Origin: Rhodocyclales bacterium
GTDB taxonomy: Bacteria; Pseudomonadota; Gammaproteobacteria; Burkholderiales; Rhodocyclaceae
Direction: 5' to 3'
NCBI GenBank assembly: GCA_016192435.1
Contig: JACPUD010000114.1
Coordinates: 1 to 45,364 of the forward strand
Length of the DNA: 45,364 nucleotides
This document shows positions 3,457-25,649 of this stretch, piece after piece. Every line of letters starts with the position of its first letter. Positions within the stretch are counted from its first letter, which is position 1. The position numbers and the translations under genes were made by a program. Under the pieces are notes generated by a model. The model ran no database searches. It was not told the DNA's origin and worked only from the letters and a program-made list of their open reading frames with translations.

Positions 3457-4673
3457 TTCCCGGACGCGGGCTTTGCCGCAATGCGCTTTGCCTTGTCGCA
3501 TTTCTCGCCTCCACCTCATTTGCCGCCAGCGTTGATTCGAAGAAGGGCGAGCTGCAGGATCTGAAAGGCCGCATCGAGGCCTTGCAGCGCGAGATGGCGG
3601 CCGCCGAGGAATCGAAGACCTCCGCCGCCGACCAGTTGCGCGAGACCGAATCGGCGATCTCGAACACCAACCGGCACCTGCATGAACTGGCTGCCGAACG
3701 CGCCACGCTGAAAGCCCAGCTCGACGAGCTCCTGGCACAGAGCCAGCGGCTCGACCGTCAGACCGGCGCGCAGCAGAACCAGCTGGTGCGCCTGCTCAAT
3801 CGCCAGTTTGTCGGCGGCGACGCCGACGCGCTGAAGCTGCTGTTGTCGGGCCGCGACCCCAACCAGTCGGCCCGCGACAAATATTTCCTGACCCAGCTCT
3901 CGCGCGCCGAGGCCGATCTGATCCAGCAATTGCGTGCGGTCGCCGCCGAAAAAAAGCGCCTCGCAGATGCAGCTCAGGCGCGGCAGCAGCAGTTGGCCGA
4001 AATCGAACGCCGGCAGCAGGAAAGCCGCGCCCAGTTGCTTGACCGCAAAAAGCAGCGGCTGACCAAGCTGATCGCGATCGCCGACCGGCTCAAGGCGCAG
4101 CGCCGTGAAATCAACACCCTGAAGCGCGATGAGCAGCGGCTGGCGAAGCTGATCGACGGTCTGGCCCGCATCGCGGCATCGAAGCGCGCCAGGCCGAAAG
4201 TTGGCGCTGGCGGTACGGCGGTGGCCAAGGCGCCTAAGCTGCTCAAGAACCATGACCCGGGCAATGTCGGCGGCGCCTTCGCCGCGCTGCGCGGCCAGTT
4301 ACGCCTGCCGGTCAAGGGGGTCATCGACGGCCGCTTCGGCAGCCCGCGCCCGGAAGGCGGCGCCGCCTGGAAAGGCATTTTCATCCGTGCCGCCGAGGGC
4401 GTCGAAGTCAGGGCCGTGGCCAGCGGCGCCGTGGTTTTCTCGGACTGGTTGCGCGGCTTCGGCAACCTCTTGATCATCGATCACGGCGACGATTTTCTGT
4501 CGGTCTATGGCAACAACGAATCCCTGCTGGCGGCAGCGGGTGCCAGCGTCAAGGGTGGCGAAGCGGTCGCCACCGTGGGAAACAGCGGCGGCAACCCCGA
4601 CTCGGGTTTATACTTTGAACTCAGGCATCGGGGCCAGCCGTTCGATCCCCTGAAATGGGCCGGCAAGCGCTAG
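3453..4673 (+). CDS. envC: EnvC-like murein hydrolase activator (degenerate LytM/M23)
   Basis: A 406-residue exported divisome protein. A GTG start at 3453 overlaps the gpmA stop (GTGA) and gives a signal peptide of about 25 residues. A long Gln/Glu/Lys-rich coiled coil (about residues 27-245) follows, then a C-terminal LytM domain from about residue 290. The metal ligands of active M23 peptidases are missing. The usual H-x-G-x-D region reads AWKGIFIRA, and the H-x-H site reads VYGNN as in EnvC (LYGYN). It should therefore activate the amidases AmiA/AmiB rather than cut peptidoglycan. Location before ctpA is the usual one. One copy of the 22-bp dispersed repeat (4200-4221) lies in the linker between the two domains. 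Confidence 0.92.
4200..4221 (-). repeat. Dispersed 22-bp repeat, copy 1 (one mismatch in the core)
   Basis: Complement carries GTACCGCCAGCGCCAACT against the core GTAGCGCCAGCGCCAACT. It lies inside envC, where it is read as VGAGGTA. Confidence 0.75.
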
Positions 4674-4726
4674 TGTGCTTCAAAGCAGTGGCCCTTGATT
4701 TTCGAGCGTAGCGCGCCAACCAGTAG

Positions 4727-4758
4727 CCCCCGCCCGGGCGGGGGATGGGCGGTGGGGG
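4727..4758 (+). other. Palindrome and G-quadruplex motif in the ctpA leader
   Basis: An 18-bp perfect palindrome, CCCCCGCCCGGGCGGGGG, runs from 4727 to 4744. Its right half begins a G-rich stretch with four G-runs (4736-4738, 4740-4744, 4747-4749, 4754-4758) separated by 1, 2 and 4 bases. That fits the canonical G-quadruplex pattern on the sense strand. No T-tract follows, so it is a poor intrinsic terminator. It lies about 35 bases before the ctpA start. Confidence 0.7.
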
Positions 4759-4792
4759 TGTTCAAATTGCCTTTGTGTCCTTCGGAGTTCCT

Positions 4793-6199
4793 ATGAGCAG
4801 CAAGCTGCAACAAGTGGGTCTGGTAGTCACCGGTCTGATTGCCGGCGTATTGGTCAGTCTGAATTTTTCCGCCAGCGCCGGCAAGGACGCCGCCACGTCG
4901 GCCCTGCCAATCGAAGAGCTGCGCAGTTTCGCCGATGTCTACAACGCGATCAAGCAGGGCTATGTCGAGCCGGTCGATGACAAGAAGCTGATCACCCACG
5001 CCATCAGCGGCATGCTGGCCAATCTCGATCCGCATTCGGCCTACCTGGACGCCGACTCGTTCAAGGACCTGCAGGTCAGCACCCAGGGCGAATTCGGCGG
5101 ACTCGGCATCGAGGTCGGCATGGAAGACGGGTTCGTCAAGGTGGTGGCGCCGATCGAGGACACGCCGGCGCACAAGGCCGGGCTCAAGCCCGGTGACCTG
5201 ATCATCAAGATCGACGACACTCCGGTCAAGGGGCTGTCGCTCAACGACGCCGTGAAGAAGATGCGCGGCAAGCCGAAGACCCAGATCCGGCTCAGCATCG
5301 TGCGCAAGGGCGAGATGAAGCCTTTCGAAGTCACGCTGACGCGCGAGAAGATCAAGGTGCAGAGCGTCAAGTCGAAACTGCTCGAAGGCGGCTACGGTTA
5401 TCTGCGGGTCACCCAGTTCCAGGAAGAGACCGCGCCGGACGTGGTCAAGCACCTGGAAAAGCTGGCGAAGGCGGACCAGGAAGCCAAGGGCAGCGGCATC
5501 AGGGGCCTGGTACTCGATCTGCGCAACGATCCCGGCGGTCTGCTCAACGGGGCGGTAGGCGTTTCCGCCGCCTTCCTGCCGCCGCAGACCCTGGTCACCT
5601 CGACCGACGGCCGTACCGAGGATGCCAAACGGCGCTATCTGGCGAGCCCAGAAGACTACCAGCGCGGCCACAAGGACGACTTCATGAAGAGCCTGCCGGC
5701 TTACGCCAAAACCACGCCGATGGTGGTGCTGGTCAACGGCGGTTCGGCCTCCGCCTCGGAAATCGTCGCAGGCGCGCTGCAGGACCACAAGCGCGCCGTC
5801 GTGATGGGCACCCAGACTTTCGGCAAAGGCTCGGTGCAAACCGTGCTGCCGCTGTCCAACAACGCCGCGATCAAGCTCACCACGGCGCGCTATTTCACAC
5901 CCTCGGGCCGCTCGATCCAGGCCAAGGGCATCACGCCGGACATCATCGTCGAGGAAAGCGCCAACGGCGGATCGCGCGAGCGCATTCGCGAGGCCGACCT
6001 GGAACGGCATCTCGGTGGCGACAAGGAAAAGGCCGCCGAGCCGGCAGCGCCGAAGCCGGCGACCAGGAACGACAAGAAGGGCAAGGCCGACGAGGCTGAA
6101 GAATCGCCGCACGCGCCGATGGAATTCGCCTCGCCGAAGGACTACCAGTTGGGGCAAGCCGTGAATCTGCTCAAGGCCTGGCAGATCATCAAGCGCTGA
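4793..6199 (+). CDS. ctpA: Carboxyl-terminal processing protease (S41 family)
   Basis: A 468-residue periplasmic, membrane-tethered serine protease that trims C-termini of envelope proteins and cell-wall hydrolases. The ATG at 4793 follows GGAG with good spacing and gives an N-terminal hydrophobic segment (about residues 7-28). An upstream in-frame ATG would place the G-rich leader in the protein and is rejected. A PDZ domain (about residues 100-180, EFGGLGIEVG) precedes the S41 core. The catalytic Ser is 320 in GGSASASEI and Lys is 345 in FGKGSVQT, 25 residues apart as in E. coli Prc. A charged Lys/Glu/Ala tail near residues 395-435 is variable in the family. It lies next to envC, which suggests shared control of cell-wall remodelling. 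Confidence 0.95.
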   Translation: MSSKLQQVGLVVTGLIAGVLVSLNFSASAGKDAATSALPIEELRSFADVYNAIKQGYVEPVDDKKLITHAISGMLANLDPHSAYLDADSFKDLQVSTQGEFGGLGIEVGMEDGFVKVVAPIEDTPAHKAGLKPGDLIIKIDDTPVKGLSLNDAVKKMRGKPKTQIRLSIVRKGEMKPFEVTLTREKIKVQSVKSKLLEGGYGYLRVTQFQEETAPDVVKHLEKLAKADQEAKGSGIRGLVLDLRNDPGGLLNGAVGVSAAFLPPQTLVTSTDGRTEDAKRRYLASPEDYQRGHKDDFMKSLPAYAKTTPMVVLVNGGSASASEIVAGALQDHKRAVVMGTQTFGKGSVQTVLPLSNNAAIKLTTARYFTPSGRSIQAKGITPDIIVEESANGGSRERIREADLERHLGGDKEKAAEPAAPKPATRNDKKGKADEAEESPHAPMEFASPKDYQLGQAVNLLKAWQIIKR

Positions 6200-6214
6200 G
6201 GCGGGAGGCGCGCG

Positions 6215-6697
6215 ATGAGCCGGATGACTCCCGAAAAGGCCCGCGAGTTGCGCGATGAAAAGCGCGACGGCAAGCCGCGCCGGCGTCCTGCCGCCTTCGT
6301 TCCGCAACCCGGCACGCGCAAGCACCGCGAACTGCGCTTCGACCATCAGCATCCGGAGCATGTCGAGGAGGCGCGCGAGCTGCTGGCCGGACTCGACGGC
6401 ATGGAAATCGATACCGGGCTGGCGCCCTACAGCCTGTCGATCTGGTACGAGATCAGCGATTACTCGCTCGAAGGCCTCGAAGCTGCGCTGACGCGCCAGG
6501 GCTTTCATCTCGACAACAGCATGTACAGCAAGCTGATGCGCACCGTGGTGTACTTCTGCGAAGAAACCCAGATGCGCAACATGCGCGTGCCGGAGCGCCT
6601 GATCAAGAAATCGCACGAAATCTATTCCAAGGCCTGGGAGCATCACCCGCACGGCGACCACGACGAAACGCCGCCCGAGTTGCGACAGGAACGCTAG
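6215..6697 (+). CDS. Conserved-looking protein of unknown function
   Basis: I do not recognise this 160-residue protein. The start ATG at 6215 has a strong GGGAGG site seven bases ahead, so translation is credible. The first 35 residues are very basic (ELRDEKRDGKPRRRP). A compact mixed alpha/beta core follows, with an IDTGLAPYSLSIWYEISDYSLE segment and CEETQMRNMRVPERLIKKS. The tail is His-rich (HHPHGDHDET) and could bind metal. No signal peptide or membrane segment is visible, so it is likely cytosolic. It is packed between ctpA (15 bases) and the MoeB-like gene (8 bases), suggesting one operon. A role cannot be assigned. Confidence 0.75.
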   Translation: MSRMTPEKARELRDEKRDGKPRRRPAAFVPQPGTRKHRELRFDHQHPEHVEEARELLAGLDGMEIDTGLAPYSLSIWYEISDYSLEGLEAALTRQGFHLDNSMYSKLMRTVVYFCEETQMRNMRVPERLIKKSHEIYSKAWEHHPHGDHDETPPELRQER

Positions 6698-6705
6698 GCA
6701 CTGCC

Positions 6706-7467
6706 GTGACCGACGAGCAACTGCTGCGTTACAGCCGCCACATCCTGCTGCCGCAGATCGGCATCGAAGGCCAGGAGAACATCGTCAAGGCACGTGCCCT
6801 GGTGATCGGCGCCGGCGGCCTGGGCTCACCGGCCGCCTATTATCTGGCCTCGGCCGGCATCGGCAGCCTGGTGCTGGCGGACGGCGACACGGTCGATCTG
6901 ACCAATTTGCAGCGCCAGATCCTGCATCGCACCGACGCCATCGGCATGGCCAAGACCGCCTCGGCCAAACGCACCCTGGGCGAGATCAATCCTGAATGCC
7001 ATGTCGTCGAACTCTCCGAGCGACTTGCCGGCCAGCGGCTGGACGATGAAGTCGCGCTGGCCGATGTCGTGCTCGACTGTTGCGACAACTTCGCCACACG
7101 CCATGCGGTCAATCGCGCCTGCGTCAAATTCCGCAAGCCGCTGGTTTCAGGCGCCGCGATCCGTTTCGACGGGCAGGTCGCGGTGTTCGACTCGCGCCAG
7201 GCGGACGCGCCCTGCTACCACTGCCTGTTTCCCGAGGGACAGGAGGTCGAGGAAGTGCGCTGCGCCGTGATGGGCGTGTTCGCGCCGCTGACCGGCATCA
7301 TCGGCACAGTGCAGGCCGCGGAAGCCCTCAAGCTGCTGATCGGCTGCGGCACCAGCCTGGCCGGGCGCCTGCTGCTGCTCGATGGCCTGGGCATGGAATG
7401 GCGCGAGATCCGCGTGCCGCGCGATCCGGGCTGCGCGGTATGCGGGACTGCCGCAACCGCCGCATAG
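6706..7467 (+). CDS. moeB: HesA/MoeB/ThiF family adenylyltransferase
   Basis: A 253-residue E1-like enzyme that adenylates the C-terminal Gly-Gly of a sulfur-carrier protein such as MoaD or ThiS. It has the nucleotide-binding VIGAGGLGSPAA, the RQILHRTDAIG motif with its Arg finger, VLDCCDNFATR, and two zinc Cys pairs (CYHC near 170 and CAVC near 245). The GTG at 6706 fits the family's start (TDEQLLRYSRHILLP). No sulfur carrier lies nearby, so MoeB and ThiF cannot be told apart by context. The length and lack of a C-terminal rhodanese favour MoeB. It is the last gene of the rightward run. Confidence 0.9.
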   Translation: MTDEQLLRYSRHILLPQIGIEGQENIVKARALVIGAGGLGSPAAYYLASAGIGSLVLADGDTVDLTNLQRQILHRTDAIGMAKTASAKRTLGEINPECHVVELSERLAGQRLDDEVALADVVLDCCDNFATRHAVNRACVKFRKPLVSGAAIRFDGQVAVFDSRQADAPCYHCLFPEGQEVEEVRCAVMGVFAPLTGIIGTVQAAEALKLLIGCGTSLAGRLLLLDGLGMEWREIRVPRDPGCAVCGTAATAA

Positions 7468-7477
7468 ACTTGGAAGT

Positions 7478-7840
7478 TCAGAACAGCTGCCGGTGCCGGT
7501 AGCGTCCCGGCGCGTGACTGAGCGCGACCGAGAAGGCCAGCACGAACCAGAACAAGGGCAGGCGTCCAGGCTCCCAGAGCACCAGCAAGCCGACCAGCGC
7601 GATCTTCAACAGGGTGCCCAGGCCCTTGGCCTGGCGGAAGTAGGCCGGATTGGCCCAGGCGTCGAGGGCGACGATGCCGAGCCCCGAGACCAGCATCAGC
7701 GCGCCCCATCGCTCCGCACTCCCTGCGTCTGCCAGCACCACCGCCGAAATCCCGGCCAGCCCGGCGATATGGAATACGCGCAGGACGTTGATCAGCAGTC
7801 CGCGGCCGGGAAAATCGCGATGGCCGTCGTCTTTAGGCAA
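7478..7840 (-). CDS. Small four-helix membrane protein, unknown function
   Basis: A 120-residue hydrophobic protein with about four transmembrane segments: NVLRVFHIAGLAGISAVVL, WGALMLVSGLGIVALDAWA, LGTLLKIALVGLLVLWEP and LPLFWFVLAFSVALSH. I chose a TTG start at 7840 that overlaps the ribD stop codon. A longer reading would run through ribD in another frame and is unlikely. The Pro/His/Tyr-rich tail (SHAPGRYRHRQLF) is predicted to face the cytosol. It is convergent with the MoeB-like gene, with only 10 bases between stops. I recognise no function; translational coupling to ribD is inferred from the overlap. Confidence 0.65.
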   Translation of the reverse strand: MPKDDGHRDFPGRGLLINVLRVFHIAGLAGISAVVLADAGSAERWGALMLVSGLGIVALDAWANPAYFRQAKGLGTLLKIALVGLLVLWEPGRLPLFWFVLAFSVALSHAPGRYRHRQLF

Positions 7841-8930
7841 GGCGCGCCCGGATGCGCAAGTCGGCGCCGACGACGCGGCGCTCGATGATGTTGAGCCGCC
7901 GGACGCCGGCCAGGTCGCTGAGTTCCGCCAGGCCGAACATGCCGCGCGCTGCATCGCCGATCAGAATCGGCGCCTGGTAGATCAGCAGTTCATCGACACA
8001 GCCTTCGCGCAGCAGCGAGCCGTTGAGCCGGGTGCCGGCTTCGGCCAGCACTTCGTTGATGCCGCGCCGACCCAGTTCCTGCAGCAGCGCGGCAAGATCG
8101 ACCTTGCCCTGGGAGTTGGGCAGGATCACGATTTCCGCGCCGCGCGCCTGCAAGGCCGCACTGCGCACCGGATTGTCCTGGGCCGCGGCGATCAGCACAT
8201 TGCCGCCGTCGAGCACGGCCGCATCGGGCGGCGTTTCGAGCCGGCTGTCGATCACCACGCGCAGCGGCTGGCGGGTGGTCGCCACCTCGCGCACGGTGAG
8301 CCGCGGATTGTCGTCCTTGACCGTGCCGATGCCGGTCAGCACCGCGCAGGAGCGCGCGCGCCAGGCGTGGGCATCGCGCCGCGCATCCGGGCCGGTGATC
8401 CATTGCGAAACACCGTTGTTGAGCGCGGTCTTGCCGTCGAGGCTGGCCGCCACTTTGAGGCGCAACCAGGGCCGGCCGCGCGTCATGCGCGAGACGAAGC
8501 CGATGTTGAGTTCGGTGGCCTCGGCGGCCAGCAGTCCGCTGGCAACGTCGATCCCCGCCGCCGCCAGCTTCGCCAGCCCCTGTCCGGCCACCAGCGGATT
8601 CGGATCCTGCATCGCCGCGACCACGCGCGCAACGCCGGCCTCGATCAGCGCGTCGGCGCAAGGCGGCGTGCGGCCGTAATGGCTGCAGGGCTCCAGCGTG
8701 ACGTAGGCCGTGGCGCGCAGCGCCGTAGCGCCAGCGCCAACTATTGCGGCGATCGCCGCAGCTTCGGCATGCGGCTGCCCGGCCTGTTCGTGCCAGCCTT
8801 CGCCGATGATGCGGCCATCGCGCACCATGACGCAACCAACACGGGGATTGGGCGTGGTGCTGTAAAGCCCGCGCTGCGCCAGTTGCAGCGCGCGCGCCAT
8901 GAAGCCGTGGTCGGCCGCCGAAAAACTCAT
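7833..8930 (-). CDS. ribD: Bifunctional riboflavin deaminase/reductase RibD
   Basis: A 365-residue enzyme for two steps of riboflavin synthesis: deamination of the pyrimidine and reduction of the ribose side chain. The N-terminal deaminase has the zinc site HAE at residues 54-56 and Cys82/Cys91 in PCSHYGRTPPC. The reductase domain begins near residue 148 with PWLRLKVAASLDGKTAL and includes the GIGTVKDDNPRL motif. Length matches the family. Residues 64-70 (VGAGATA) are encoded by an exact copy of the dispersed 22-bp repeat, in a loop before the conserved ATAYVTLEP strand. It follows nrdR, a common pairing. Confidence 0.96.
   Translation of the reverse strand: MSFSAADHGFMARALQLAQRGLYSTTPNPRVGCVMVRDGRIIGEGWHEQAGQPHAEAAAIAAIVGAGATALRATAYVTLEPCSHYGRTPPCADALIEAGVARVVAAMQDPNPLVAGQGLAKLAAAGIDVASGLLAAEATELNIGFVSRMTRGRPWLRLKVAASLDGKTALNNGVSQWITGPDARRDAHAWRARSCAVLTGIGTVKDDNPRLTVREVATTRQPLRVVIDSRLETPPDAAVLDGGNVLIAAAQDNPVRSAALQARGAEIVILPNSQGKVDLAALLQELGRRGINEVLAEAGTRLNGSLLREGCVDELLIYQAPILIGDAARGMFGLAELSDLAGVRRLNIIERRVVGADLRIRARLA
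8721..8742 (+). repeat. Dispersed 22-bp repeat, copy 2 (exact)
   Basis: CGCC followed by the exact core GTAGCGCCAGCGCCAACT. It lies inside ribD, on the strand opposite to the gene, and is read as VGAGATA. Confidence 0.85.
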
Positions 8931-8954
8931 GCGGCGCTCATCTGCCGCTGCCCA

Positions 8955-9428
8955 TCACGCCTTGGCCCGGGGCTGGCGCGGCTTCTTGATTTCGCGGATC
9001 GCATCGGAAAACTCGTCGACGTCCTCGAAATTGCGATACACGGAAGCGAAGCGGATGTAGGCCACCTTGTCGAGCTTCTTCAGCTCGCGCATCACCAGCT
9101 CGCCGATGCGGTCCGAGGCGACTTCGCGCAGCGCCAGCTGCACCAGCTTTTCCTCGATGCGATCGAGTGCCAGGTCGATGCTTTCGGTGGTGACGGGGCG
9201 CTTCCTCATCGCCAGCATCATGCTGGCCTTGAGCTTGTCGCGGTCGTAGTCGGTGCGGCTGCCGTTCTTCTTCACCACCTGCGGCAGTTGCAGTTCCACG
9301 CGCTCGTAGGTGGTGAAGCGCTTGTCGCAGGACAGGCAGCGACGGCGACGGCGCACGGTGTCGCCGTCCTCGTTCTCGCGGGTGTCCACCACCTGCGTAT
9401 TCTCGTCATTGCAGTATGGACACTTCAT
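8955..9428 (-). CDS. nrdR: Transcriptional repressor NrdR
   Basis: A 157-residue regulator that binds NrdR boxes in front of ribonucleotide reductase genes and senses ATP/dATP. The zinc ribbon uses Cys3, Cys6, Cys31 and Cys34, with the RRRRRC basic DNA-binding stretch between. The ATP-cone follows from about residue 46 ([18 protein letters not shown]). Length is typical. It lies between glyA (21 bases) and ribD (24 bases) in the same direction, an arrangement widely seen in proteobacteria. Confidence 0.97.
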
Positions 9429-9449
9429 AACCTGCTCCGCTAGTGGCGA

Positions 9450-10694
9450 TCAGCCATATACCGGAAACTTCTTGCACAGCGCCGCCACTTCGCCGCGCAC
9501 GCGCTGCAGCATGGCTTCGTCATGCGGCGCGTCGAGCACGTCGGCGATCAGGTTCGCCACCTGTTCCGCCTCGATCTCGGTGAAGCCGCGCGTGGTCATG
9601 GCCGGCGTGCCGATGCGGACACCGCTGGTGACGAAGGGCTTTTGCGGGTCGTTGGGAATCGCGTTCTTGTTCACCGTGATGTGGGCGCGGCCCAGCGCAG
9701 CTTCGGCATCCTTGCCGGTGATGTTCTTGGCCTGCAGGTCGACCAGAAAGACATGCGACTCGGTGCGGCCGGAGACGATGCGCAGGCCGCGGCTCTTGAG
9801 GACCTTGGCCATCACCTGGGCGTTGTCGATCACCTGCTCCTGATAGTTGCGGAACTCGGAGGTCATCGCCTCCTTGAAGGCCACGGCCTTGGCGGCGATC
9901 ACGTGCATCAGCGGGCCACCCTGGAGGCCGGGGAAGATCGCCGAGTTGATCGCCTTTTCGTGTTCGGCGCGCATCAGGATCAGGCCGCCGCGCGGGCCGC
10001 GCAGGGTCTTGTGGGTGGTCGAGGTGACGACGTCGGCGTGCGGCACCGGGTTGGGGTAGAAGCCCGCGGCGACCAGGCCGGCATAGTGCGCCATGTCCAC
10101 CATGAAGATGGCGCCGACCGCCTTGGCCACCTTGGCGAAGCGCTCGAAGTCGATTTTCAGCGCATAGGCCGAGGCGCCGGCGATGATCAGCTTGGGCTTA
10201 TGCTCGTGAGCCAGCCTCTCCATCTCCGCGTAGTCGATTTCCTCGTTCTCGTCGAGACCGTAGGGCACGACATTGAACCACTTGCCGGACATGTTGAGCG
10301 TCATGCCATGCGTCAGGTGGCCGCCGGCGGCGAGGTTCATGCCGAGCACGGTGTCGCCGGGCTTGAGAAAGGCGAAGAACACCGCCTGGTTGGCCTGCGA
10401 GCCGGAATTCGGCTGGACGTTGGCGGCTTCCGCGCCGAACAGTTTCTTGGCGCGGTCGATGGCCAGTTGCTCGGCGACGTCGACATATTCGCAGCCGCCG
10501 TAATAGCGCTTGCCAGGGTAGCCTTCGGCATACTTGTTGGTTAGTTGCGAACCCTGGGCTTCCATGACCGGCCAGGAAACGTAATTCTCCGAGGCGATCA
10601 GCTCGATGTGATCTTCCTGACGATGGTTTTCGTTCTGAACCGCGCTCCAGAGTTCGGGGTCGCTCTTGGCAAGGGTGTTTTGCTTGGAGAACAT
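9450..10694 (-). CDS. glyA: Serine hydroxymethyltransferase
   Basis: A PLP enzyme that converts serine and tetrahydrofolate to glycine and methylene-THF, the main source of one-carbon units. It has 414 residues from the ATG at 10694, which gives the family-like [17 protein letters not shown] longer reading to 10760 adds non-homologous residues. Motifs include [27 protein letters not shown] and the PLP lysine, Lys229, in [13 protein letters not shown]. Seen order is glyA-nrdR-ribD, probably one transcript. The 145-base gap to the histidine phosphatase gene should hold its promoter, but no convincing boxes were found. Confidence 0.98.
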
Positions 10695-10839
10695 TTTTTG
10701 GCTTTCAACAGAACGTTTCAGTGCAGGCCAACGCGTAGCGTCATGCCGAAACCAAAACATGGCGGAATCCGTGGATGGATGGGAGCGGGCGATTTTAGCA
10801 TCGGCCCGGATCGATCCAAAATCCGGCCGCGGTGCTTCC

Positions 10840-11487
10840 CTATTCGAGGACTTCGTCGAGCGCCCGGGTCAAATGACTGCAGTCGCCCCAGGAAACCAGC
10901 CGCCAGCCGCGATCGTCGCGTTCCAGCCAGTTGAAGGCGGCGTTCGCCACCGGGAAATCGCGCGGAGCATCGAGCGCCCGGCCGGTGGCGGCGCGATAGG
11001 CGATATCCAGCACGCCGCCGTGGGTGAAAGCCAGCACCTTCTGTCCGGCATGGCGCGCGGCGAGCGCATCGAGCCCGCTCATTACACGGGCCGCGAACAC
11101 CACCAGGGATTCGCCGGTCTCGTAGTCATGGTCCGGCGTCCGTGCCAGATGATGGCGATGCACCTCCGGGTGCTGCAGACTGGCTTCGTGCAAGGTGGCG
11201 CCCTGCAGCACGCCGAAATGCCGTTCGCGCAGAGTTGGCGCTGGCGCCACGGCGGGGCCGAGACCTGCTGTGGCAATCTGCGCCGTGTGCCAGGCGCGCA
11301 GCAAGTCGCTGCTGTAGATTGCGGCGAAGCTGTGCTGCGCCAGGCCGGGCCGCAAGGCCCGGGCCTGGGCTGCGCCGGTCGCGTTGAGATCGATGTCGAT
11401 CTGCCCCTGAATCCGTCGCTCGCCATTCCAGTCGGTCTCGCCATGACGAACGAGACAGAGGCGCGTGACAGAAGGTGAATTGGGCAT
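10840..11487 (-). CDS. Histidine phosphatase family protein
   Basis: A 215-residue phosphoglycerate-mutase-fold phosphatase. The start at 11487 gives [21 protein letters not shown], with the phospho-accepting His at 15. The second catalytic His lies in [14 protein letters not shown], and the acid in [11 protein letters not shown]. These features match the GpmB/CobC/broad-specificity subfamily, so the substrate cannot be named. An alternative ATG lies at 11496. The stretch AVAPAPT is encoded by a one-mismatch copy of the dispersed 22-bp repeat (11233-11254), just before the conserved LRERHFG. It is transcribed away from the sigma-54 regulator gene. Confidence 0.9.
11233..11254 (-). repeat. Dispersed 22-bp repeat, copy 3 (one mismatch)
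   Basis: Complement carries GTGGCGCCAGCGCCAACT. It lies in the histidine phosphatase gene and is read as AVAPAPT. In this copy TGGCGC-TG-GCGCCA is a perfect dyad. Confidence 0.75.
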
Positions 11488-11600
11488 GCGCGGCATTTTA
11501 CCCGCGGCCCGGCAAAGTCCTGGATTTCGCATTTAGTGTGACAATGCCTGGCGATTCCGGACCGGCCCGGAACCTGGCTCGACGAAAGGAAGCTTGCGCG

Positions 11601-16190: not shown

Positions 16191-16434
16191 TTGATCCATC
16201 AATAGCAGCTGGCGGATCGATTGCGACTTCCAGGCATTTCGATCACCTGCGGCAAAACGCGGCTGACATCAGGGAGCGGTTCTTGAATCAACGAATGTTG
16301 AAGGCACGGGTTAATATAGCCGCGGGCGGTAACAGGACGCGATCCGAAAAAGAACAGCCGCCCACCGCGCTTGAACCACCCCATGACCTGCGCCAATGCG
16401 GTCCGTCATCGCCCCAGCGCCCCGAGGAGACGCC

Positions 16435-17034
16435 ATGCAAGGCCTGCTGAAACTGTCACGCCTGATCGACTGGTTGAACGATAGGCTCGGGCGCGGCCTG
16501 AAGTGGCTGATCCTGGCCGCGGTGCTGATTTCGGCCGGCAACGCCATCGTGCGCAAGACGCTGGACATGAGTTCGAACTCCCTGCTCGAAATCCAGTGGT
16601 ACCTGTTCGCCACGGTATTCATGCTGGGTTCGGGCTTTGCCTTCCTGAAAAACGCCCACGTCCGCATCGACTTCATTTCCAACCACCTCTCGGCACGCAC
16701 ACGCAACCTGATCGACATCGTCGGCATCGTCGTCTTTTTGCTGCCGCTGTGTTACATGATCATCACCCTGTCCTGGCCGCTCTTCATGAACGCCTGGAAC
16801 AGCGGCGAAATGTCGCAGAATGCCGGCGGCCTGATCCGCTGGCCGATGTACGGCCTGATCCCGCTCGGCTTCGCCGTCCTCGCGCTGCAGGGCCTGTCCG
16901 AACTCATCAAGCGCGCCGCCTTCGTCAGCGGTACCGGTCCGGACGTCATCAGTCACGTCGAAACCGCAGCCACCGATGAAATCGGCCACGAGATCGAGGA
17001 ACACGCGGCACACGTACGAGAGGAAGTCCGTTGA
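16435..17034 (+). CDS. dctQ: TRAP transporter small membrane subunit (DctQ)
   Basis: A 199-residue inner-membrane protein with about four transmembrane helices (about residues 21-36, 50-65, 92-112 and 135-155). It pairs with DctM and helps dock the binding protein. The SSNSLLEIQWYLFATVFMLGSGF and AHVRIDFI segments are typical of the family. The ATG at 16435 follows GAGGAG; an earlier in-frame start at 16396 lacks such a site. The stop overlaps the dctM start (TGATG), so translation is coupled. The gene order dctQ-dctM-dctP is complete. Confidence 0.92.
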   Translation: MQGLLKLSRLIDWLNDRLGRGLKWLILAAVLISAGNAIVRKTLDMSSNSLLEIQWYLFATVFMLGSGFAFLKNAHVRIDFISNHLSARTRNLIDIVGIVVFLLPLCYMIITLSWPLFMNAWNSGEMSQNAGGLIRWPMYGLIPLGFAVLALQGLSELIKRAAFVSGTGPDVISHVETAATDEIGHEIEEHAAHVREEVR

Positions 17035-18857: not shown

Positions 18858-18942
18858 TTCTTGAAGCGTAGTGTTGTAGTATCCGGCGACGGACCAGTCC
18901 GGCCCAGTCGTCATGTTTGAACCACATCGAGGAGATCAATAC
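18858..18942 (+). other. dctM-dctP spacer with a small dyad
   Basis: An 85-base gap in which CGGAC-CA-GTCCG (18890-18901) could form a hairpin. GAGGAG precedes the dctP start. Such a hairpin could protect a processed dctP message, which would give more binding protein than permease. That is a guess; no promoter was found here. Confidence 0.3.
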
Positions 18943-20055: not shown

Positions 20056-20095
20056 GCCCGCATCGCTCCGGCCGGCAACGGCCGGCGTCAAGGAC

Positions 20096-20118
20096 AACCC
20101 CGCTGCGGCGGGGTTTTT
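20096..20118 (+). terminator. Rho-independent terminator of the TRAP operon
   Basis: Stem CCCCGC/GCGGGG with loop TGCG, extended by AA/TT pairs and ending in TTTTT. It lies 41 bases after the dctP stop. Confidence 0.9.
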
Positions 20119-20120
20119 CT

Positions 20121-20147
20121 TATGTCCGCGCCGGAAGCGCGGACATA
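20121..20147. repeat. Perfect 11-bp inverted repeat
   Basis: Arms TATGTCCGCGC and GCGCGGACATA around the 5-base loop CGGAA. It starts three bases after the T-tract of the terminator. There is no T-tract of its own on either side. Confidence 0.8.
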
Positions 20148-20162
20148 TCCCCTGGCGGGATT

Positions 20163-20200
20163 GCCGCGCTCCGCGTCTGCCCCGGCACGCGGAGCGCGGC
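20163..20200. repeat. Perfect 14-bp inverted repeat
   Basis: Arms GCCGCGCTCCGCGT and ACGCGGAGCGCGGC around a 10-base loop. It ends five bases from the stop codon of the leftward methyltransferase gene. It could mark the 3' end of that message, but no U-tract follows. Confidence 0.75.
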
Positions 20201-20205
20201 GCCCG

Positions 20206-21354
20206 TCAGCGCCGCGCGAGACGCCAGAGCGAGGTCAACTCCGCGGCACGCGCGGCGTGCAGCGGGTCGCTGCGATCTGCGCTGCGCGGATGGCTCGGCT
20301 TGGCATCGAGCCGTCCCACCAATTCCAGCCCGGCGGCTGCGATCGTCGCCAGCAGTTCCTCGCGACTGCGCAGGCCCAGATGTTCGGCAAGATCGGAGAG
20401 CACCAGCCAGCCCTCTCCGCCCGGTTCCAGATGTGCCGCCAGGCCGCCGATCCATCCCATCAGCATGCGACTGTCCGGATCATAGACCGCGCGCTCCAGC
20501 GGCGACGCGGCGCGGGCCGGCAGCCAGGGCGGATTGCACACGATCAGCGACGCGCGCCCCGGCGGAAACAGATCGGCAGCCATCACCTCGACCCGCGCCG
20601 CCAGACCCAGTCGCTCCAGGTTCTCGGCGGCGCAGGCCAGGGCGCGCGGATCCTGGTCGGTGGCGACGACGCGGGCCACACCGCGCTGCGCCAGCAGTGC
20701 GGCCAGCACGCCGGTACCGGTGCCGATGTCGAACGCCAGGTCGCAACCGGCGGGCAGCGGCGCGGCGGCGACCAGGTCGACATACTCGCCGCGCACCGGG
20801 GCGAACACGCCGTAATGCGGATGAATGCGCGCGCCGAGCGCCGGCACCGCGACACCCTTCTTGCGCCACTCGTGGGCGCCGATCAGGCCCAGCAGTTCGC
20901 GCAATGAAGCGACGAAGGGCCCGGAGGCGGGGCCATAGGCGGCGGCACACGCCTCGCGCACGTCGGGTGCCCGGCGCAGCGGCAGATGGTAATCGTCGTC
21001 GAAGGGCAGCAGCAGCATGCCCAGCGTGCGCGCCCGTTGCGACTGGGCCAGCCGGTAGCGGTGAAAGGCCTCGGCGGCGGTTGCCGGCGCCGCCGGCGCC
21101 CGGCGCGGCTTGCGCTCGATGCGCCGGGCCATGGCCTGCAGCAGTTGCCGCGCGTTCTGGAAATCGCCGCGCCACAGCAGCGCGGTGCCCTCGCAAGCGA
21201 GACGATAGGCCGCATCGGCGGTGATGCGGTCATCGGCGGGCACCACCTTGCCCGGCGGCGCTGCGCCGCCCTCCGAGTGCCAGCGGGCGCAGTGCACTGC
21301 GCCGTGCTCGGTCCACGAAATCACCGCGACTGGACTTGCAGCACTGACTGTCAC
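20206..21354 (-). CDS. Class I SAM-dependent methyltransferase
   Basis: A 382-residue protein. The C-terminal half is a SAM-binding Rossmann domain: motif I DIGTGTGVLAALLA, then VVATDQDPRAL and the catalytic-type NPPW in SLIVCNPPWLPA. The NPP[YFW] motif is found in enzymes that methylate N5 of glutamine or exocyclic amines of adenine/guanine, so the substrate is protein or nucleic acid. The N-terminal 190 residues include a SEGGAAPPGKVVPADDRI start and an Arg-rich helix region that I cannot name. The start is the ATG at 21354. Three 10-bp direct repeats lie 37-66 bases upstream. The gene is convergent with the TRAP operon. Confidence 0.85.
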   Translation of the reverse strand: MTVSAASPVAVISWTEHGAVHCARWHSEGGAAPPGKVVPADDRITADAAYRLACEGTALLWRGDFQNARQLLQAMARRIERKPRRAPAAPATAAEAFHRYRLAQSQRARTLGMLLLPFDDDYHLPLRRAPDVREACAAAYGPASGPFVASLRELLGLIGAHEWRKKGVAVPALGARIHPHYGVFAPVRGEYVDLVAAAPLPAGCDLAFDIGTGTGVLAALLAQRGVARVVATDQDPRALACAAENLERLGLAARVEVMAADLFPPGRASLIVCNPPWLPARAASPLERAVYDPDSRMLMGWIGGLAAHLEPGGEGWLVLSDLAEHLGLRSREELLATIAAAGLELVGRLDAKPSHPRSADRSDPLHAARAAELTSLWRLARR

Positions 21355-21390
21355 GTGCGGGGCCTGACTCGAAACGACACGGTGATTACC

Positions 21391-21420
21391 TCGACGGAGC
21401 TCGACGTAGCTCGACGTATA
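21391..21420. repeat. Three tandem 10-bp repeats upstream of the methyltransferase gene
   Basis: TCGACGGAGC, TCGACGTAGC and TCGACGTATA follow each other without gaps. The 10-base period equals about one helical turn. The location, 37-66 bases before the methyltransferase start codon, suits a regulator-binding site. No known regulator is recognised. Confidence 0.6.
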
Positions 21421-21444
21421 GGGGTGGGGCGCGTGCCAGGTCGC

Positions 21445-21466
21445 CGCCGTAGCGCCAGCGCCAACT
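21445..21466 (+). repeat. Dispersed 22-bp repeat, copy 4 (exact, intergenic)
   Basis: CGCC followed by the exact core GTAGCGCCAGCGCCAACT. It lies between the methyltransferase start and the pmbA stop, 10 bases beyond the latter. Confidence 0.85.
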
Positions 21467-21476
21467 CTTGCCGGCG

Positions 21477-22814
21477 TCAGTTGCCGGCGATCGTCATGCG
21501 CTCGACCAGCATCGAGCCGACCTGTTTCGAGCCGCGCACCTCGATGTCGTTGCCGATGGCGGCGATGCCGCGCAGCATCTCGCGCAGATTGCCGGCGATG
21601 GTGATCTCCTCCACCGGATAGGCGATTTCGCCGTGTTCCACCCAGTAGCCCGCGGCGCCGCGCGAATAGTCGCCGGTCACGTAATTCACGCCCTGGCCGA
21701 GCAGCTCGGTCACCAGCAGGCCGCTGCCCATTTCGCGCAGCAGTCCCTGGAGGTCGTGGCGTCCCGGCTGCACCAGCAGGTTGTGCGAGCCGCCGGCATT
21801 GCCGGTGGTGGCCATGCCCAGCTTGCGCGCCGAGTAGGTGGACAGGAAGTAGCCTTGCAGCACGCCGTTCTTCACCACCTCGCGGTCGTGCGTGGCGACG
21901 CCATCGTCATCGAAGGGCGAGGAGGCGAAGGCGCCGCGGATGTGCGGGCGTTCGCTGATCTGGACGAAGTCGGGGAAGATCTGCTGGCCCAGGCTGTCGA
22001 GCAGGAAGGAGGTCTTGCGATACAGCGAACCGCCGGAGATGGCATGGACGAAGCTGCCTATCAGTCCGGCCGCCAGCGGCGCTTCGAAAATCACCGGGCA
22101 CTTGCGCGTCTTCAGTTTGCGCGCACCGAGCCGGGCCAGCGCACGCCGCGCCGCGTAGTCGCCGATGCGGGCGGCATCGGGAAACTCGTCCGCATTGCGC
22201 CGCGTCGCGTACCAGTCATCGCGCTGCATGTCCTCGCCTTCGCCGGCGATCACCGAGCAGGAGACATAGTGGCGCGAGGTGGCGAAGCCTCCCATGAAGC
22301 CCAGGCTGTTGGCCGACACGAATTGCGACTGTTGCGCCGACACGGTGGCACCTTCGGAGTTCTTCACCATCGGGCTGACATCGAAGGCGGCCTGTTCGCA
22401 GCGGCGCGCAAGCTGCATGGCGTCCTCCACCGAAATATCCCAGGGATGGAACAGATCGAGGTCCATGCCTTGCGTCGCCAGCAGCTTCGCCTCGGGCAGG
22501 CCGGCGCAATCGTCCTCGGCGGTGAAGCGGGCGATCGACAGCGCCGCCTCGACCGAGGCCCTGACCGCCGCCGGCGAAAAGTCGGAACTGCTGGCATGGC
22601 CACGTCGCTGGCCGAGGTACACCGAGACGCCGAGCCCCTTGTCGCGGTTGTACTCGATGGTTTCGACCTCCTGCCGGCGCACGCTGACCGACTGGCCGAA
22701 ACCCTCCGAAACATCGACCTCGCAAGCGGTCGCGCCCTTGCTGGCCGCGTGGTCGAGAACGGACTGCGCCAATGCGCGCAACGCCTCTTGAGAATGAGCG
22801 AAACCTTGGGACAT
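21477..22814 (-). CDS. pmbA: Metalloprotease PmbA/TldE
   Basis: A 445-residue TldD/PmbA family protein. With TldD it forms a protease that degrades unfolded peptides and matures small modified peptides. In E. coli the metal site lies in TldD and TldE/PmbA lacks it. Family segments present include VETIEYNRDKGLGVSVYLG, CPVIFEAPLAAGLIGSFV, GVLQGYFLSTYSARKLGM and GNAGGSHNLLV. The length matches PmbA. No HExxxH motif is visible, as expected for this subunit. It is divergent from darP, and the two start codons are 76 bases apart. This pairing is common in beta- and gammaproteobacteria. Confidence 0.95.
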   Translation of the reverse strand: MSQGFAHSQEALRALAQSVLDHAASKGATACEVDVSEGFGQSVSVRRQEVETIEYNRDKGLGVSVYLGQRRGHASSSDFSPAAVRASVEAALSIARFTAEDDCAGLPEAKLLATQGMDLDLFHPWDISVEDAMQLARRCEQAAFDVSPMVKNSEGATVSAQQSQFVSANSLGFMGGFATSRHYVSCSVIAGEGEDMQRDDWYATRRNADEFPDAARIGDYAARRALARLGARKLKTRKCPVIFEAPLAAGLIGSFVHAISGGSLYRKTSFLLDSLGQQIFPDFVQISERPHIRGAFASSPFDDDGVATHDREVVKNGVLQGYFLSTYSARKLGMATTGNAGGSHNLLVQPGRHDLQGLLREMGSGLLVTELLGQGVNYVTGDYSRGAAGYWVEHGEIAYPVEEITIAGNLREMLRGIAAIGNDIEVRGSKQVGSMLVERMTIAGN

Positions 22815-22839
22815 GCGGGAACCCTTCGATTGGCGAAGC

Positions 22840-22845
22840 TATAAT
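22840..22845 (+). promoter_or_regulatory. Candidate -10 element (TATAAT) for darP
   Basis: A perfect TATAAT lies 46 bases before the darP start. No good -35 element was found at 16-18 bases upstream, so the promoter is only tentative. Confidence 0.35.
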
Positions 22846-22890
22846 CATATCCCACCGGGGGATACCGTCCCCCTCGCAAACTCCGGGGAC

Positions 22891-23451
22891 ATGACCGTGG
22901 ACGATATCGATAACGACGCGGACGAATATTCCGGCCCCAGCAAGTCGCAACTGAAGCGCGAAATGACCGCCTTGCAGGATCTCGGTGCGGAACTGGTGGC
23001 GCTGTCGAAGGAGCGCCTGGCGAAGATAGACATTCCGGAACGCTTGCGCGACGCCTTGCTCGAAGCACAGCGCATCACCAAGCACGAAGCCAGGCGGCGC
23101 CAGATGCAATACATCGGCAAGATCATGCGCACGGTCGATGCGGCGCCCCTGCGTGTGGCGATGGACGAAATCAATGGCGTGTCGAAAGCCGCCACGATTC
23201 GCCAGCACCAGTTGGAAAGATTGCGTACGCGGCTGATGGAAGACGAGGCGGTGTTCAGCGAAGTGGCCCGCGACTACCCCGGTGCCGACATGCAGCATCT
23301 GCGCCAGTTACGGCGCAATGCGCTGAAGGAAGCCCAGCAGGGCAAGCCGCCACGCGCCTACCGCGAATTGTTCCGCGAACTGCGCGCCCTCGAAGGCAGT
23401 GCCGCGGCGGACGACACGGCGAACGGCGCGGCGGACGACGACGCCGGCTAG
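22891..23451 (+). CDS. darP: Ribosome biogenesis factor DarP (YjgA, DUF615)
   Basis: A 186-residue acidic/basic helical protein that associates with late 50S ribosome precursors. The family core is present: PSKSQLKREMTALQDLGAEL, LREALL-like DIPERLRDALLEAQRI, RRRQMQYIGKIMR and LRQLRRNALKE. The start at 22891 (GGGGA ahead) gives the expected acidic head (TVDDIDNDADEY). A longer reading to 22813 overlaps pmbA and is not supported. The Ala/Asp-rich tail is variable. Confidence 0.93.
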   Translation: MTVDDIDNDADEYSGPSKSQLKREMTALQDLGAELVALSKERLAKIDIPERLRDALLEAQRITKHEARRRQMQYIGKIMRTVDAAPLRVAMDEINGVSKAATIRQHQLERLRTRLMEDEAVFSEVARDYPGADMQHLRQLRRNALKEAQQGKPPRAYRELFRELRALEGSAAADDTANGAADDDAG

Positions 23452-23457
23452 CGGCGC

Positions 23458-23730
23458 CTAGGCAAAATCCTTTTGCGGCGCGGGCGCCGGACTGCTGCTC
23501 GAGGTCAGGATGGTCAGCACCGCCTGCGCGTGTTCCGCCGCATCGCGCCCGAGGCCCGTCAGATAACCGCCGTCGACCAGGGTCAGCAGACCCTTGGCAT
23601 GCAGGCGCTGCGTCGCGGCGATGACTGCCGGATCGGCGGTCTTGTGCACCTTGATGCCATGCTGGCTGGTCTCCAGGTCGAAGCGGATCAGGGTATTCAG
23701 TTCATGGATCAGATCGGGCGTGTAGGGCAT
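23458..23730 (-). CDS. TIGR02647 family protein
   Basis: A 90-residue protein with the pattern of the TIGR02647 family, small proteins of unknown function in beta- and gammaproteobacteria: MPYTPDLIHELNTL, RFDLETSQHGIKVH, RLHAKGLLTLVDGGYLT and GRDAAEHAQ. The start at 23730 follows GAGG at seven bases. A longer form starting at 23766 lacks similarity to the family. The fold looks like a small winged-helix-type domain, but DNA binding is not established. It is convergent with darP, with six bases between the stops. Confidence 0.85.
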   Translation of the reverse strand: MPYTPDLIHELNTLIRFDLETSQHGIKVHKTADPAVIAATQRLHAKGLLTLVDGGYLTGLGRDAAEHAQAVLTILTSSSSPAPAPQKDFA

Positions 23731-23829
23731 GTCAAACCTCGCTCTTGAATGTACGGCAATGGACACATTCTAGCTTCCGGAGCCGCGAGCGCAGGCTTTT
23801 GCCCGAAGGAAATCTCCGCGGCCGGTGCT

Positions 23830-24771
23830 TCAAAGGCCGGGATCGGCGCCTTCGCCCTTCAACGTAGCCTCGACCATGCGCCGCGTCAACTGCGGGGCCA
23901 GCAGTTCCATGAAGTCGTATTCGTAGCCGCGCAGCCAGATGTCGCGGCGAAAGGCGATCCGCGTGGTGTTGCCCTCGAACAAGTGGGTGGCCGGCAGGGC
24001 GGCCAGCGCGGCGTCGCGCAGCGGGTCGAAGGCCATTTCGGCGATGATGCCAACGCCCAAACCGAGTTCGACATAGGTCTTGATCACATCGGAATCGATC
24101 GCGGTCAGCATCACATTGGGCCGCAGGCTCTGCCGCTCGAAGGCGCGATCGATGCGCGAACGCCCGGTGAAGGTCGCGTCGTAGGTGATCAGCGGATGGT
24201 CGGCCAGCGCCGCCAGCGTCAGCGGCTGGCGTTCCAGCAGCGGGTGCCCCCTGGGCGTCACCACCAGATGCGCCCACTGGAAACAGGGCAAGGTCAGCAA
24301 CTCGGCATGCCGGTCGAGTGCCTCGGTGGCAATGCCCAGATCGGCGCTGCCGTCCAGCACCCAGTCCGCGACCTGCAATGGGCTGCCCTGCTGGATGTGC
24401 AGGCGTATCTGCGGGTAGCGCTGGACGAAGCGCTGGATCACCGGCGGCAAGGTGTAGCGCGCCTGGGTGTGGGTGGTCGCGATCGACAGCATGCCGCTGC
24501 TTTCCGCGGCGTAGTCCTCGCCCACCCGCTTCATGTTCTGCGCCTCGGTCAAGATGCGCCGCGCCATCGCCAGCACGATCGATCCGGGAGCGCTCACGGC
24601 GATGAGGCGCTTGCCGCTGCGCTCGAAAATCGTCACGCCGAGTTCTTCCTCGAGCATGCCGATCTGCTTGGAGACCCCCGGCTGCGACGTAAACAAGGCC
24701 TCCGCGGCGGCTGACACGCTGAGTCCGCGCCGCTCGACTTCCACCAGGTAACGCAGTTGCTGGAGTTTCAT
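23830..24771 (-). CDS. cysB: LysR-type regulator of sulfur assimilation, CysB
   Basis: A 313-residue LysR regulator. The N-terminal helix-turn-helix reads VSAAAEALFTSQPGVSKQIG, close to CysB (MKLQQLRYLVEV start). The co-inducer domain keeps CysB landmarks: SIATTHTQARYTLP, LHIQQGSPLQVADWV, LTYDATFTGRSRID-like and DSDVIKTYVELGLGVGIIAEM. In CysB, N-acetylserine or O-acetylserine is the inducer and sulfide antagonises it. It is divergent from the sulfate assimilation operon, which is its expected target. The end of the protein is near the usual length. Confidence 0.95.
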   Translation of the reverse strand: MKLQQLRYLVEVERRGLSVSAAAEALFTSQPGVSKQIGMLEEELGVTIFERSGKRLIAVSAPGSIVLAMARRILTEAQNMKRVGEDYAAESSGMLSIATTHTQARYTLPPVIQRFVQRYPQIRLHIQQGSPLQVADWVLDGSADLGIATEALDRHAELLTLPCFQWAHLVVTPRGHPLLERQPLTLAALADHPLITYDATFTGRSRIDRAFERQSLRPNVMLTAIDSDVIKTYVELGLGVGIIAEMAFDPLRDAALAALPATHLFEGNTTRIAFRRDIWLRGYEYDFMELLAPQLTRRMVEATLKGEGADPGL

Positions 24772-24801
24772 GATTTGATTATATACCCGCTTCTTCTATC
24801 T

Positions 24802-24820
24802 AAATACATATTAAGTATTT
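24802..24820. promoter_or_regulatory. A/T-rich dyad between cysB and the cys operon
   Basis: AAATAC-N7-GTATTT lies midway in the 74-base divergent spacer, which is much more A/T-rich than its surroundings. CysB sites are A/T-rich and poorly conserved, so this is a candidate site for CysB, by position. It is 25 bases before the permease start. Confidence 0.5.
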
Positions 24821-24845
24821 TTCAGGCCTATATGAACTCGCTACG

Positions 24846-25649
24846 ATGGCTTCCATCATGGAATTCATCTTCAACCCCGCCCTGTCGATTTCCGGCTTCG
24901 CCGTCGGCCTGCTGGTCGGCCTGACCGGCGTCGGCGGCGGCTCGCTGATGACGCCCTTGCTGGTACTGCTGTTCGGCTTCAAGCCGGCGACCGCAGTGGG
25001 CACTGACTTGCTATATGCGGCGATCACCAAAAGCGGCGGTTCCTGGGTGCATCACCGGCATGGCAACATCGAATGGCGCATCACCGGACGCCTCGCCCTC
25101 GGCAGCGTCCCGGCCGCCGGCTTGACCCTGTTGGCGCTCGCGCAACTCGGCATAAAAGGCCACGGCGCGACGGGATTGATCTCCGTGGTGCTCGGCTTTT
25201 CCCTGCTGCTGACTGCGCTTTCCCTGTTCTTCCGCCAGCGCCTGCTGGACTTGGCCAAGCGCCGTAGCGCCAGCGCCAACTTTGCCCAGCGTCATGTCGC
25301 CGGCCTGACGGTTGCCGTGGGCGCCATCGTCGGCGCATTGGTGACGATTTCCTCGGTCGGCGCCGGCGCGCTCGGCGTCACCGCGCTCGCCTTCCTCTAT
25401 CCGCAACTGGCCGCGCGCCGCATCGTCGGCTCGGACATCGCCCATGCCGTGCCGCTGACCCTGGTCGCCGGCCTCGGCCACTGGTGGCTGGGCACGGTCG
25501 ATGTGGTGCTGCTGGTCTCGCTCTTGATCGGTTCGCTGCCCGGCATCGCGCTCGGTGCCCACTTCGCCGCGAGGGTGCCGGAACGGGCGCTGCGCGGCCT
25601 GCTCGCCTCCGTACTGCTGCTGGTCGGCGGCAAGCTGATCTTCGTCTAA
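24846..25649 (+). CDS. TSUP (TauE/SafE) family anion permease
   Basis: A 267-residue inner-membrane protein with about eight hydrophobic segments in two repeats. The first repeat has the family motif GLLVGLTGVGGGSLMTPLLV; the second begins near residue 150 with AVGAIVGALVTISSVGAGALG. As the first gene of the sulfate assimilation operon it probably moves sulfate, sulfite or another sulfur anion. No cysUWA-type sulfate ABC importer is present here. Both ATGs at 24846 and 24858 are possible starts. Residues RRSASAN (near 139-145), in the hydrophilic loop between the two halves, come from an exact copy of the 22-bp repeat. Confidence 0.9.
   Translation: MASIMEFIFNPALSISGFAVGLLVGLTGVGGGSLMTPLLVLLFGFKPATAVGTDLLYAAITKSGGSWVHHRHGNIEWRITGRLALGSVPAAGLTLLALAQLGIKGHGATGLISVVLGFSLLLTALSLFFRQRLLDLAKRRSASANFAQRHVAGLTVAVGAIVGALVTISSVGAGALGVTALAFLYPQLAARRIVGSDIAHAVPLTLVAGLGHWWLGTVDVVLLVSLLIGSLPGIALGAHFAARVPERALRGLLASVLLLVGGKLIFV
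25260..25281 (+). repeat. Dispersed 22-bp repeat, copy 5 (exact)
   Basis: CGCC followed by the exact core. It lies inside the TSUP permease gene and is read as RRSASAN, in a loop between two membrane segments. Confidence 0.85.

Follow-up and report, generated by a model that had tools for sequence, protein, structure and literature searches.

A repeated 24-base word in the window

The window analyzed here is the whole 45,364-nucleotide contig JACPUD010000114.1 of a Rhodocyclales bacterium (assembly GCA_016192435.1), in which an initial annotation had noticed a 22-bp repeat scattered among unrelated genes and which we discuss below as the carrier of a candidate DNA uptake sequence. The repeat is real: exact cores lie at 8725-8742, 21449-21466 and 25264-25281, all on the plus strand, and cores with one mismatch at 4199-4216 and 11233-11250, both on the minus strand. 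The repeat unit is the asymmetric 24-base word CGCCGTNNCGCCAGCGCC(A/G)ACTNT, which has about 20 near-fixed bases, organized around three CGCC blocks, and a T-rich end. Copies collected from 429 kb of the host genome, the window included, gave the consensus CGCCGTR.CGCCAGCGCCAACTCTTG, which is sharply bounded and has flanks devoid of signal; the unit is 24-25 bases rather than 22. The dyad TGGCGC-TG-GCGCCA, singled out in the initial annotation, is not a conserved feature because it depends on G at a free position, where 46% of copies have this base.

At up to three mismatches the window contains eight matches, compared with 0.05 expected from shuffled sequence. The four coding hosts named earlier are backed by Pfam (M23 peptidase of the EnvC-like type, RibD, histidine phosphatase and TauE/TSUP), and the fifth copy is indeed intergenic. 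The copies are as follows.

4197..4220, minus strand: full motif, no mismatch; within the EnvC-like M23 peptidase gene (3453-4673, plus), antisense
8721..8744, plus strand: full motif, no mismatch; within ribD (7833-8930, minus), antisense, peptide IVGAGATA
11231..11254, minus strand: full motif, no mismatch; within the histidine phosphatase gene (10840-11532, minus), sense, peptide PAVAPAPTL
21445..21468, plus strand: full motif, no mismatch; intergenic, 8 bases past the stop of the PmbA/TldD gene (21477-22814, minus)
25260..25283, plus strand: full motif, no mismatch; within the TauE/TSUP permease gene (24846-25649, plus), sense, peptide RRSASANF
30544..30567, minus strand: one mismatch; within an EF-Tu-type GTPase gene (29585-30868, plus), CysN-like by our reading
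1016..1039, plus strand: weak motif, three mismatches; 3' end of secB (1036-1491, minus)
40300..40323, plus strand: weak motif, three mismatches; in a fructosamine-kinase-family gene (40085-40975, plus)
7857..7880, minus strand: degenerate motif, four mismatches; C-terminus of ribD

Abundance and distribution among genomes

The host genome, G000, was placed in Sulfuritalea by named ribD loci (3.52 Mb, 83% complete, 148 contigs). Its full scan returned 352 matches at up to two mismatches and a single match to the reversed word. For the genus and family, CGCCGTNNCGCCAGCGCCNACTNT served as the search word at up to three mismatches, with the reversed word as the control. Under these settings G000 contains 609 copies (control 2), and all 31 Sulfuritalea genomes carry the word in 75-795 copies (control 0 to 11). 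The lowest counts in the genus belong to G016 (75), G021 (202) and G025 (277), and the remaining 28 genomes have 385-795 copies. In a family survey of 121 genomes from 68 genera, nine genera including Sulfuritalea had one or more genomes with at least 60 copies (g1, g32, g38, g43, g47, g62, g69, g70 and g88; reversed controls up to 10). One of these, g47, is split, with 66 copies in one genome and 2 in the other. Eleven further genera have 10-35 copies in at least one genome, and the remainder fewer than 10. In the order survey (399 genomes), 386 genomes outside the family had at most 9 copies, which is the control level (up to 11).

Another count covered 44 genomes to which named loci had led. 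In it, the Sulfuritalea group (12 genomes) has 202-795 copies, Rugosibacter 447, the genome of locus L098 127, and two genomes titled 'Rhodocyclaceae bacterium' 622 and 746, and 0-11 copies were counted in Azonexus, Dechloromonas, Zoogloea, Thauera, Aromatoleum, Propionivibrio, Accumulibacter and Sterolibacterium. A RibD tree was built from 54 rows (53 loci picked by us from 80, plus the window); in it, the 17 carrier rows make up one side of a branch with 99/99 support. Of the non-carrier rows, nine took their label from the ribD locus alone, not from a whole-genome count. The carriers sampled fall in a single clade.

In two low-count genomes, G195 (contig C148) and G109 (contigs C104 and C557), several perfect copies sit together on individual contigs, the pattern that transferred fragments or errors in binning would give. 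The locus L134 is titled Bordetella parapertussis, but the RibD tree groups it with environmental Betaproteobacteria, and the title therefore looks wrong; the records L124, L158 and L160 are likewise titled.

Dialects of the word

The word was refined separately in nine genome sets of 46-429 kb each, with a GC content of 0.55-0.65 and 0-2 sites in the reversed controls. The forms obtained were as follows.

G000: ...GCGCCAACTCTTG
G001: tCGCCGTa.CGCCAGCGCCGACTcty
G061 (g32): CGCCGTCcCGCCAGCaCCGACTTTT
G117 (g88): CGCCGT.tCaCCAGCGCCGACTTTt
G132 (g43): gtGCCGTCcCGCCAGCGCCGACTTTt
G153 (g70): CGCCGTgcCGCCagCGCCGACTTTttc
Rugosibacter: CGCCGTnTcaCCAGCGCCGACTTTt
G098 (g69): cgCCGT.tCnCCAGCGTCGACTTTT

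The ninth set, G025, yielded only 10 sites, with 2 in its control. Since the G117 and Rugosibacter forms read alike, about six distinct dialects can be counted, sampled in Sulfuritalea and in five of the eight other enriched genera (g38, g47 and g62 were left out). The A form is common to G015, G027 and G000, with 132 core matches at up to one mismatch in G015 and 141 in G027, and the other genomes of the genus have 0-32 core matches to it at that threshold. No new dialect was found in 103 kb of G016; the top repeated 12-mers in its stretches L442-L446 are of the AAGAAGGCTGCT type, perhaps from a Lys/Ala-rich histone-like protein.

Placement in the genome

Placement was analyzed in 800 kb of the genome G001, taken as 40 stretches spread over the chromosome and avoiding 20 earlier stretches picked around matches, and in the 429 kb of G000; the gene calls come from our own heuristic and are not an annotation. 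The G001 sample contains 146 sites at up to three mismatches (51, 53, 31 and 11 with 0, 1, 2 and 3 mismatches; reversed control 0, 0, 0 and 1), or 135 at up to two mismatches with none in the control. About two thirds of them (98) are intragenic, where 130 would be expected, 46 lie between genes and 2 span gene ends; in G000, 45 of 77 sites are in genes (66 expected). Copies lie on both strands genome-wide, as the initial annotation had them in the window. Within genes, the orientation and frame of the copies are distributed as follows.

Antisense, frame 0: 46 in G001, 21 in G000
Sense, frame 2: 27 in G001, 13 in G000
Antisense, frame 2: 15 in G001, 4 in G000
Sense, frame 0: 9 in G001, 6 in G000
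Sense, frame 1: 1 in G001, 1 in G000
Antisense, frame 1: 0 in G001, 0 in G000

Five of the six orientation-frames are thus used in G001, and antisense copies prevail there (61 of 98, p 0.02), with no bias in G000 (25 of 45, p 0.55). The in-gene copies of G001 favor bland peptides (VGAG.TA in 46, AVPPAPT in 27 and KSALA in 15 of 98). These peptides alone account for only a small part of the copies, because five synonymous-codon shuffles of each sample left 13-19 sites against the 98 observed in G001 and 3-9 against 45 in G000. The earlier suggestion that selection acts on the DNA rather than on one peptide is upheld by these counts, which lie well above those of sequence with equal codon use.

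Between genes, the density of sites is 3.8 times the coding density in G001. In G001 there are 2.8 sites/kb in convergent intergenic regions and 0.54 in divergent ones; the corresponding values for G000 are 0.90 and 0.14. Among intergenic copies that lie beside the 3' end of a gene, 26 of 34 in G001 and 15 of 25 in G000 are no more than 40 bases from the stop codon. Along the G001 chromosome the density is near Poisson (mean 3.65 and variance 3.36 per 20 kb), and strand shows no bias with respect to replichore (45/38 and 30/33, p 0.50; replichore limits set by eye from the GC skew). A replication polarity had been hinted at by 11 same-strand GTAG variants in a row in G001, but the wider sample disagreed.

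Conservation and origin of sites

Orthologous positions were aligned for 33 sites (up to two mismatches) from Sulfuritalea loci and the window, skipping sites near ends. Of 314 within-genus pairs, 261 were ungapped and 53 gapped across the motif; the ungapped pairs had 0, 1 and 2 mismatches in 62, 88 and 38 cases, and three or more in 73. In a second run on 314 pairs, identity was 0.904 at fixed positions, 0.803 in the flanks and 0.523 at free positions, with gaps in 1-2% of pairs per motif column. The thirteenth base, A, is a fixed position with an identity of only 0.60, and most of the difference in the sites seen is A/G. Aligned pairs are not independent, as the ribD sites recur many times. 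The fixed bases are thus conserved more than the flanks and the free bases less, and the differences between sites in the genus are mainly substitutions. Between genera, 714 of 810 pairs are gapped, so these alignments leave the mode of origin undecided.

The ribD gene contains two sites. The place of the first, 8721..8744, is also occupied in two related Rhodocyclaceae genomes (L099 and L123), as it is in most of the named Sulfuritalea loci. This site carries 1 to 5 extra residues (three in the window gene) relative to most other Rhodocyclaceae, whereas a clean 24-base insertion would add eight. At the C-terminal site (7857..7880), most named Sulfuritalea loci have copies with two or three mismatches at the orthologous position, in a conserved peptide with no indel. 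Small loop indels therefore contribute, and clean 24-base insertion does not. In the ribD of L101, a Sulfuritalea genome (locus 10001-11110), the site is split by ~36 extra bases encoding ~12 added residues (SLCVPGNPLRGQ), possibly another small element that landed in it.

Scarcity in foreign-looking DNA

The word is scarce in low-GC DNA. In 5-kb windows whose GC content lies over 5 points below the mean (90 kb: 55 kb from G000 and 35 kb from G001), one site was found and 17.4 were predicted from the other windows; the deficit has P of about 5e-7 if the windows are independent, a condition that fails inside an island. A low GC content does not by itself explain the scarcity, because genomes of 55-58% GC carry 0.21-0.33 sites/kb. 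Most of the G000 part is a single island on contig C5 (about 39000-95000, ~56 kb; stretches L017-L020), with a GC content of 0.54-0.62 between flanks of ~0.65-0.71. It contains one match, with three mismatches; without it, G000 retains 15 kb of low-GC windows, with no site. A tyrosine recombinase (Arm-DNA-bind_2, Phage_integrase) is encoded near its left end, and matches to BrxC, PglX and PglW (BREX-type) lie within it.

Candidate uptake machinery

ComEC (PF03772) was found in all 17 genomes searched, carriers and non-carriers alike, and each of six genomes encodes 10-21 prepilins; neither feature is specific to carriers. A G001 pilin adjoining a GspH/FimT-type pilin scores 44 bits with ComP_DUS (cut-off 27.3). 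A comparison of the pilins of carriers, G016 and two non-carriers yielded no clear receptor candidate. The sole HHH_3 match in G000, considered as a possible ComEA, is part of a Tex-like protein. Very short pilins are present in L062 (contig C62 of G000, where two stand in tandem), L063 (G001) and L057 (G117); they resemble the truncated major pilins of Geobacter.

Discussion

The analysis documents the word, how abundant it is, its dialects, the clade that carries it, where its copies lie, how they are conserved and how few of them occur in foreign-looking DNA; we infer its reading during uptake, the identity of its receptor and the drive that spreads it. Our interpretation, to which we give a probability of roughly 0.7, is that the word is a putative DNA uptake sequence in the Sulfuritalea-Rugosibacter clade and has no sequence relation to those already known. 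Free DNA bearing the word would be bound at the cell surface by a receptor, probably one of the minor type IV pilins, and would be taken in preferentially; it would then cross the inner membrane via ComEC and recombine into the chromosome. Alleles matching the word would thereby be imported more often than non-matching ones, and the word would accumulate wherever homologous recombination reaches and be lost by point mutation. If the preference of the receptor drifts, the whole genome would follow, which would produce dialects. It is also probable, if slightly less so, that these environmental Betaproteobacteria of the Sulfuritalea/Rugosibacter type are a third bacterial lineage with independently evolved self-specific uptake, using a word of ~20 near-fixed bases, longer than the 9-12 known elsewhere, in about six dialects.

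How does the word compare with known systems? The DNA uptake sequence (DUS) of Neisseria and its relatives occurs on both strands and mostly in genes, inverted DUS pairs acting as terminators are common in Neisseria, and the core of the uptake signal sequence (USS) of Pasteurellaceae is flanked by AT tracts. Like the neisserial DUS, whose receptor is ComP, the Sulfuritalea word is short and abundant, has lineage dialects, and lies on both strands and mostly in genes. Unlike it, the word is an unrelated 24-base sequence instead of one of 9-12 bases, belongs to another lineage, is less dense, forms few terminator-like inverted pairs and has only a putative receptor and a putative uptake role. 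With the USS, for which ComN/PpdA is the proposed receptor, it shares hundreds of copies or more, a reading-frame orientation bias and dialects, and its T-rich end is reminiscent of the AT tracts; the two differ in sequence, in how long the near-fixed core is and in bacterial class. Repetitive extragenic palindromes (REPs) are extragenic hairpins; the word resembles the REP/RAYT system in being short, dispersed and present in many copies, but it is mostly intragenic and its dyad is not conserved. HIP1, an 8-base palindrome, and Chi and KOPS, which have 8 bases and are strand-polar, are over-represented inside genes as well, yet the Sulfuritalea word has 24 bases and is neither palindromic nor polar. 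In most genomic respects tested, it resembles the known uptake sequences, the exceptions being the rarity of inverted pairs and the failure to find ComEA in G000.

According to a 2025 paper, preference for self DNA at the binding step is known only from Neisseriaceae and Pasteurellaceae, the neisserial DUS has about 9-12 bases and the Pasteurellaceae USS has dialects (PMC12616744). Another study reports that Neisseriaceae have eight DUS dialects that track the core phylogeny, and that five of their genomes lack an obvious DUS (PMC3630211). For Pasteurellaceae, a 2008 note describes one reading-frame orientation as commoner and copies as leaning toward gene ends (PMC2346458), and a 2020 paper used the DUS distribution to locate integrative elements (PMC7371117).

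Several observations weigh against an uptake function. The copy density of ~0.2/kb is below that of known uptake-sequence systems, which is about 1/kb, and a search for inverted pairs acting as terminators found them to be rare, only one of 11 close pairs being in terminator order. Despite ComEC and 16 prepilins, G016 has 75 copies in all and none at up to three mismatches in the 103 kb inspected. The ComP_DUS pilin is present in 46 of 48 genomes, namely 19 of 20 carriers (counting G016 as a carrier) and 27 of 28 non-carriers, and because so many non-carriers have it, this family fails to single out a receptor; the GspH/FimT pilins proved no more discriminating. The carrier G098, a metagenome-assembled genome of 330 contigs, has no ComP_DUS pilin and only two prepilins. 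No ComEA was found in G000 (83% complete, and the only genome searched for it), and a strict ComEA-like pattern had no match in the sampled stretches of nine groups. The low-GC sample is small (90 kb), and about half of it is a single island. At least 120 IMG/VR stretches contain an exact copy (L222-L301), lying in what may be host flanks or phage DNA. Finally, outside the RibD carrier clade, the Sulfuricellaceae genomes G201 (L127, Sulfurimicrobium) and G214 (L163) contain 19 and 21 copies of the degenerate word (reversed controls 0 and 2), which argues against a simple limit to the family and could reflect transfer, contamination or a related dialect.

The word could instead be the binding site of a cytoplasmic protein that organizes, marks or protects the chromosome, with selection acting at each site. 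Its length, its asymmetry and the constraint on its fixed positions agree with this, as do the near-Poisson density along the G001 chromosome and the lack of a detected ComEA in G000. We nevertheless consider this unlikely, since replichore polarity and a conserved palindrome are lacking, many copies carry a single mismatch, the dialects change in concert over many sites, and low-GC DNA has few copies; none of these points is decisive outright. The initial annotation had left the choice between a protein-binding mark and a small mobile element that tolerates insertion in genes. The data agree with a mark that is spread over the genome and recognized by a protein, and the mobile element is unsupported.

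A REP/MITE-like (miniature inverted-repeat transposable element) repeat inserting into genes and gaps would indeed be dispersed, in many copies and in both orientations, and the 1 to 5 extra residues at the ribD site speak for it. They do not amount to a clean insertion, the copies are mostly intragenic with a strong choice of frame, no flank is conserved, and the predominance of ungapped within-genus pairs speaks against mobile insertion at that level, which makes this origin very improbable. Least credible of all is an origin as a side effect of GC-rich codon usage or of Ala/Gly/Pro linkers. The favored peptides are bland and codon shuffles still produce some sites, but the near-zero reversed-word control, the use of several frames, the intergenic enrichment and the presence of the word where genomic GC is 55% all contradict it, and the controls exclude it.

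Within the open-access literature, no paper linking a DNA uptake sequence with Rhodocyclaceae was found, none on Sulfuritalea and natural transformation, and none containing any of four 14-letter forms of the word. What is understood of the preference of some bacteria for their own DNA in transformation has so far come from two families, Neisseriaceae and Pasteurellaceae, both largely animal-associated. If the proposed uptake function is true, the Sulfuritalea-Rugosibacter clade would provide an independent third case in environmental bacteria, in which the origin, drift and loss of the word and its receptors would be directly comparable across dialects and related genera without it. In that case, site-free stretches would also flag recently acquired islands, and these bacteria might be easier to transform in the laboratory with DNA that bears the word.

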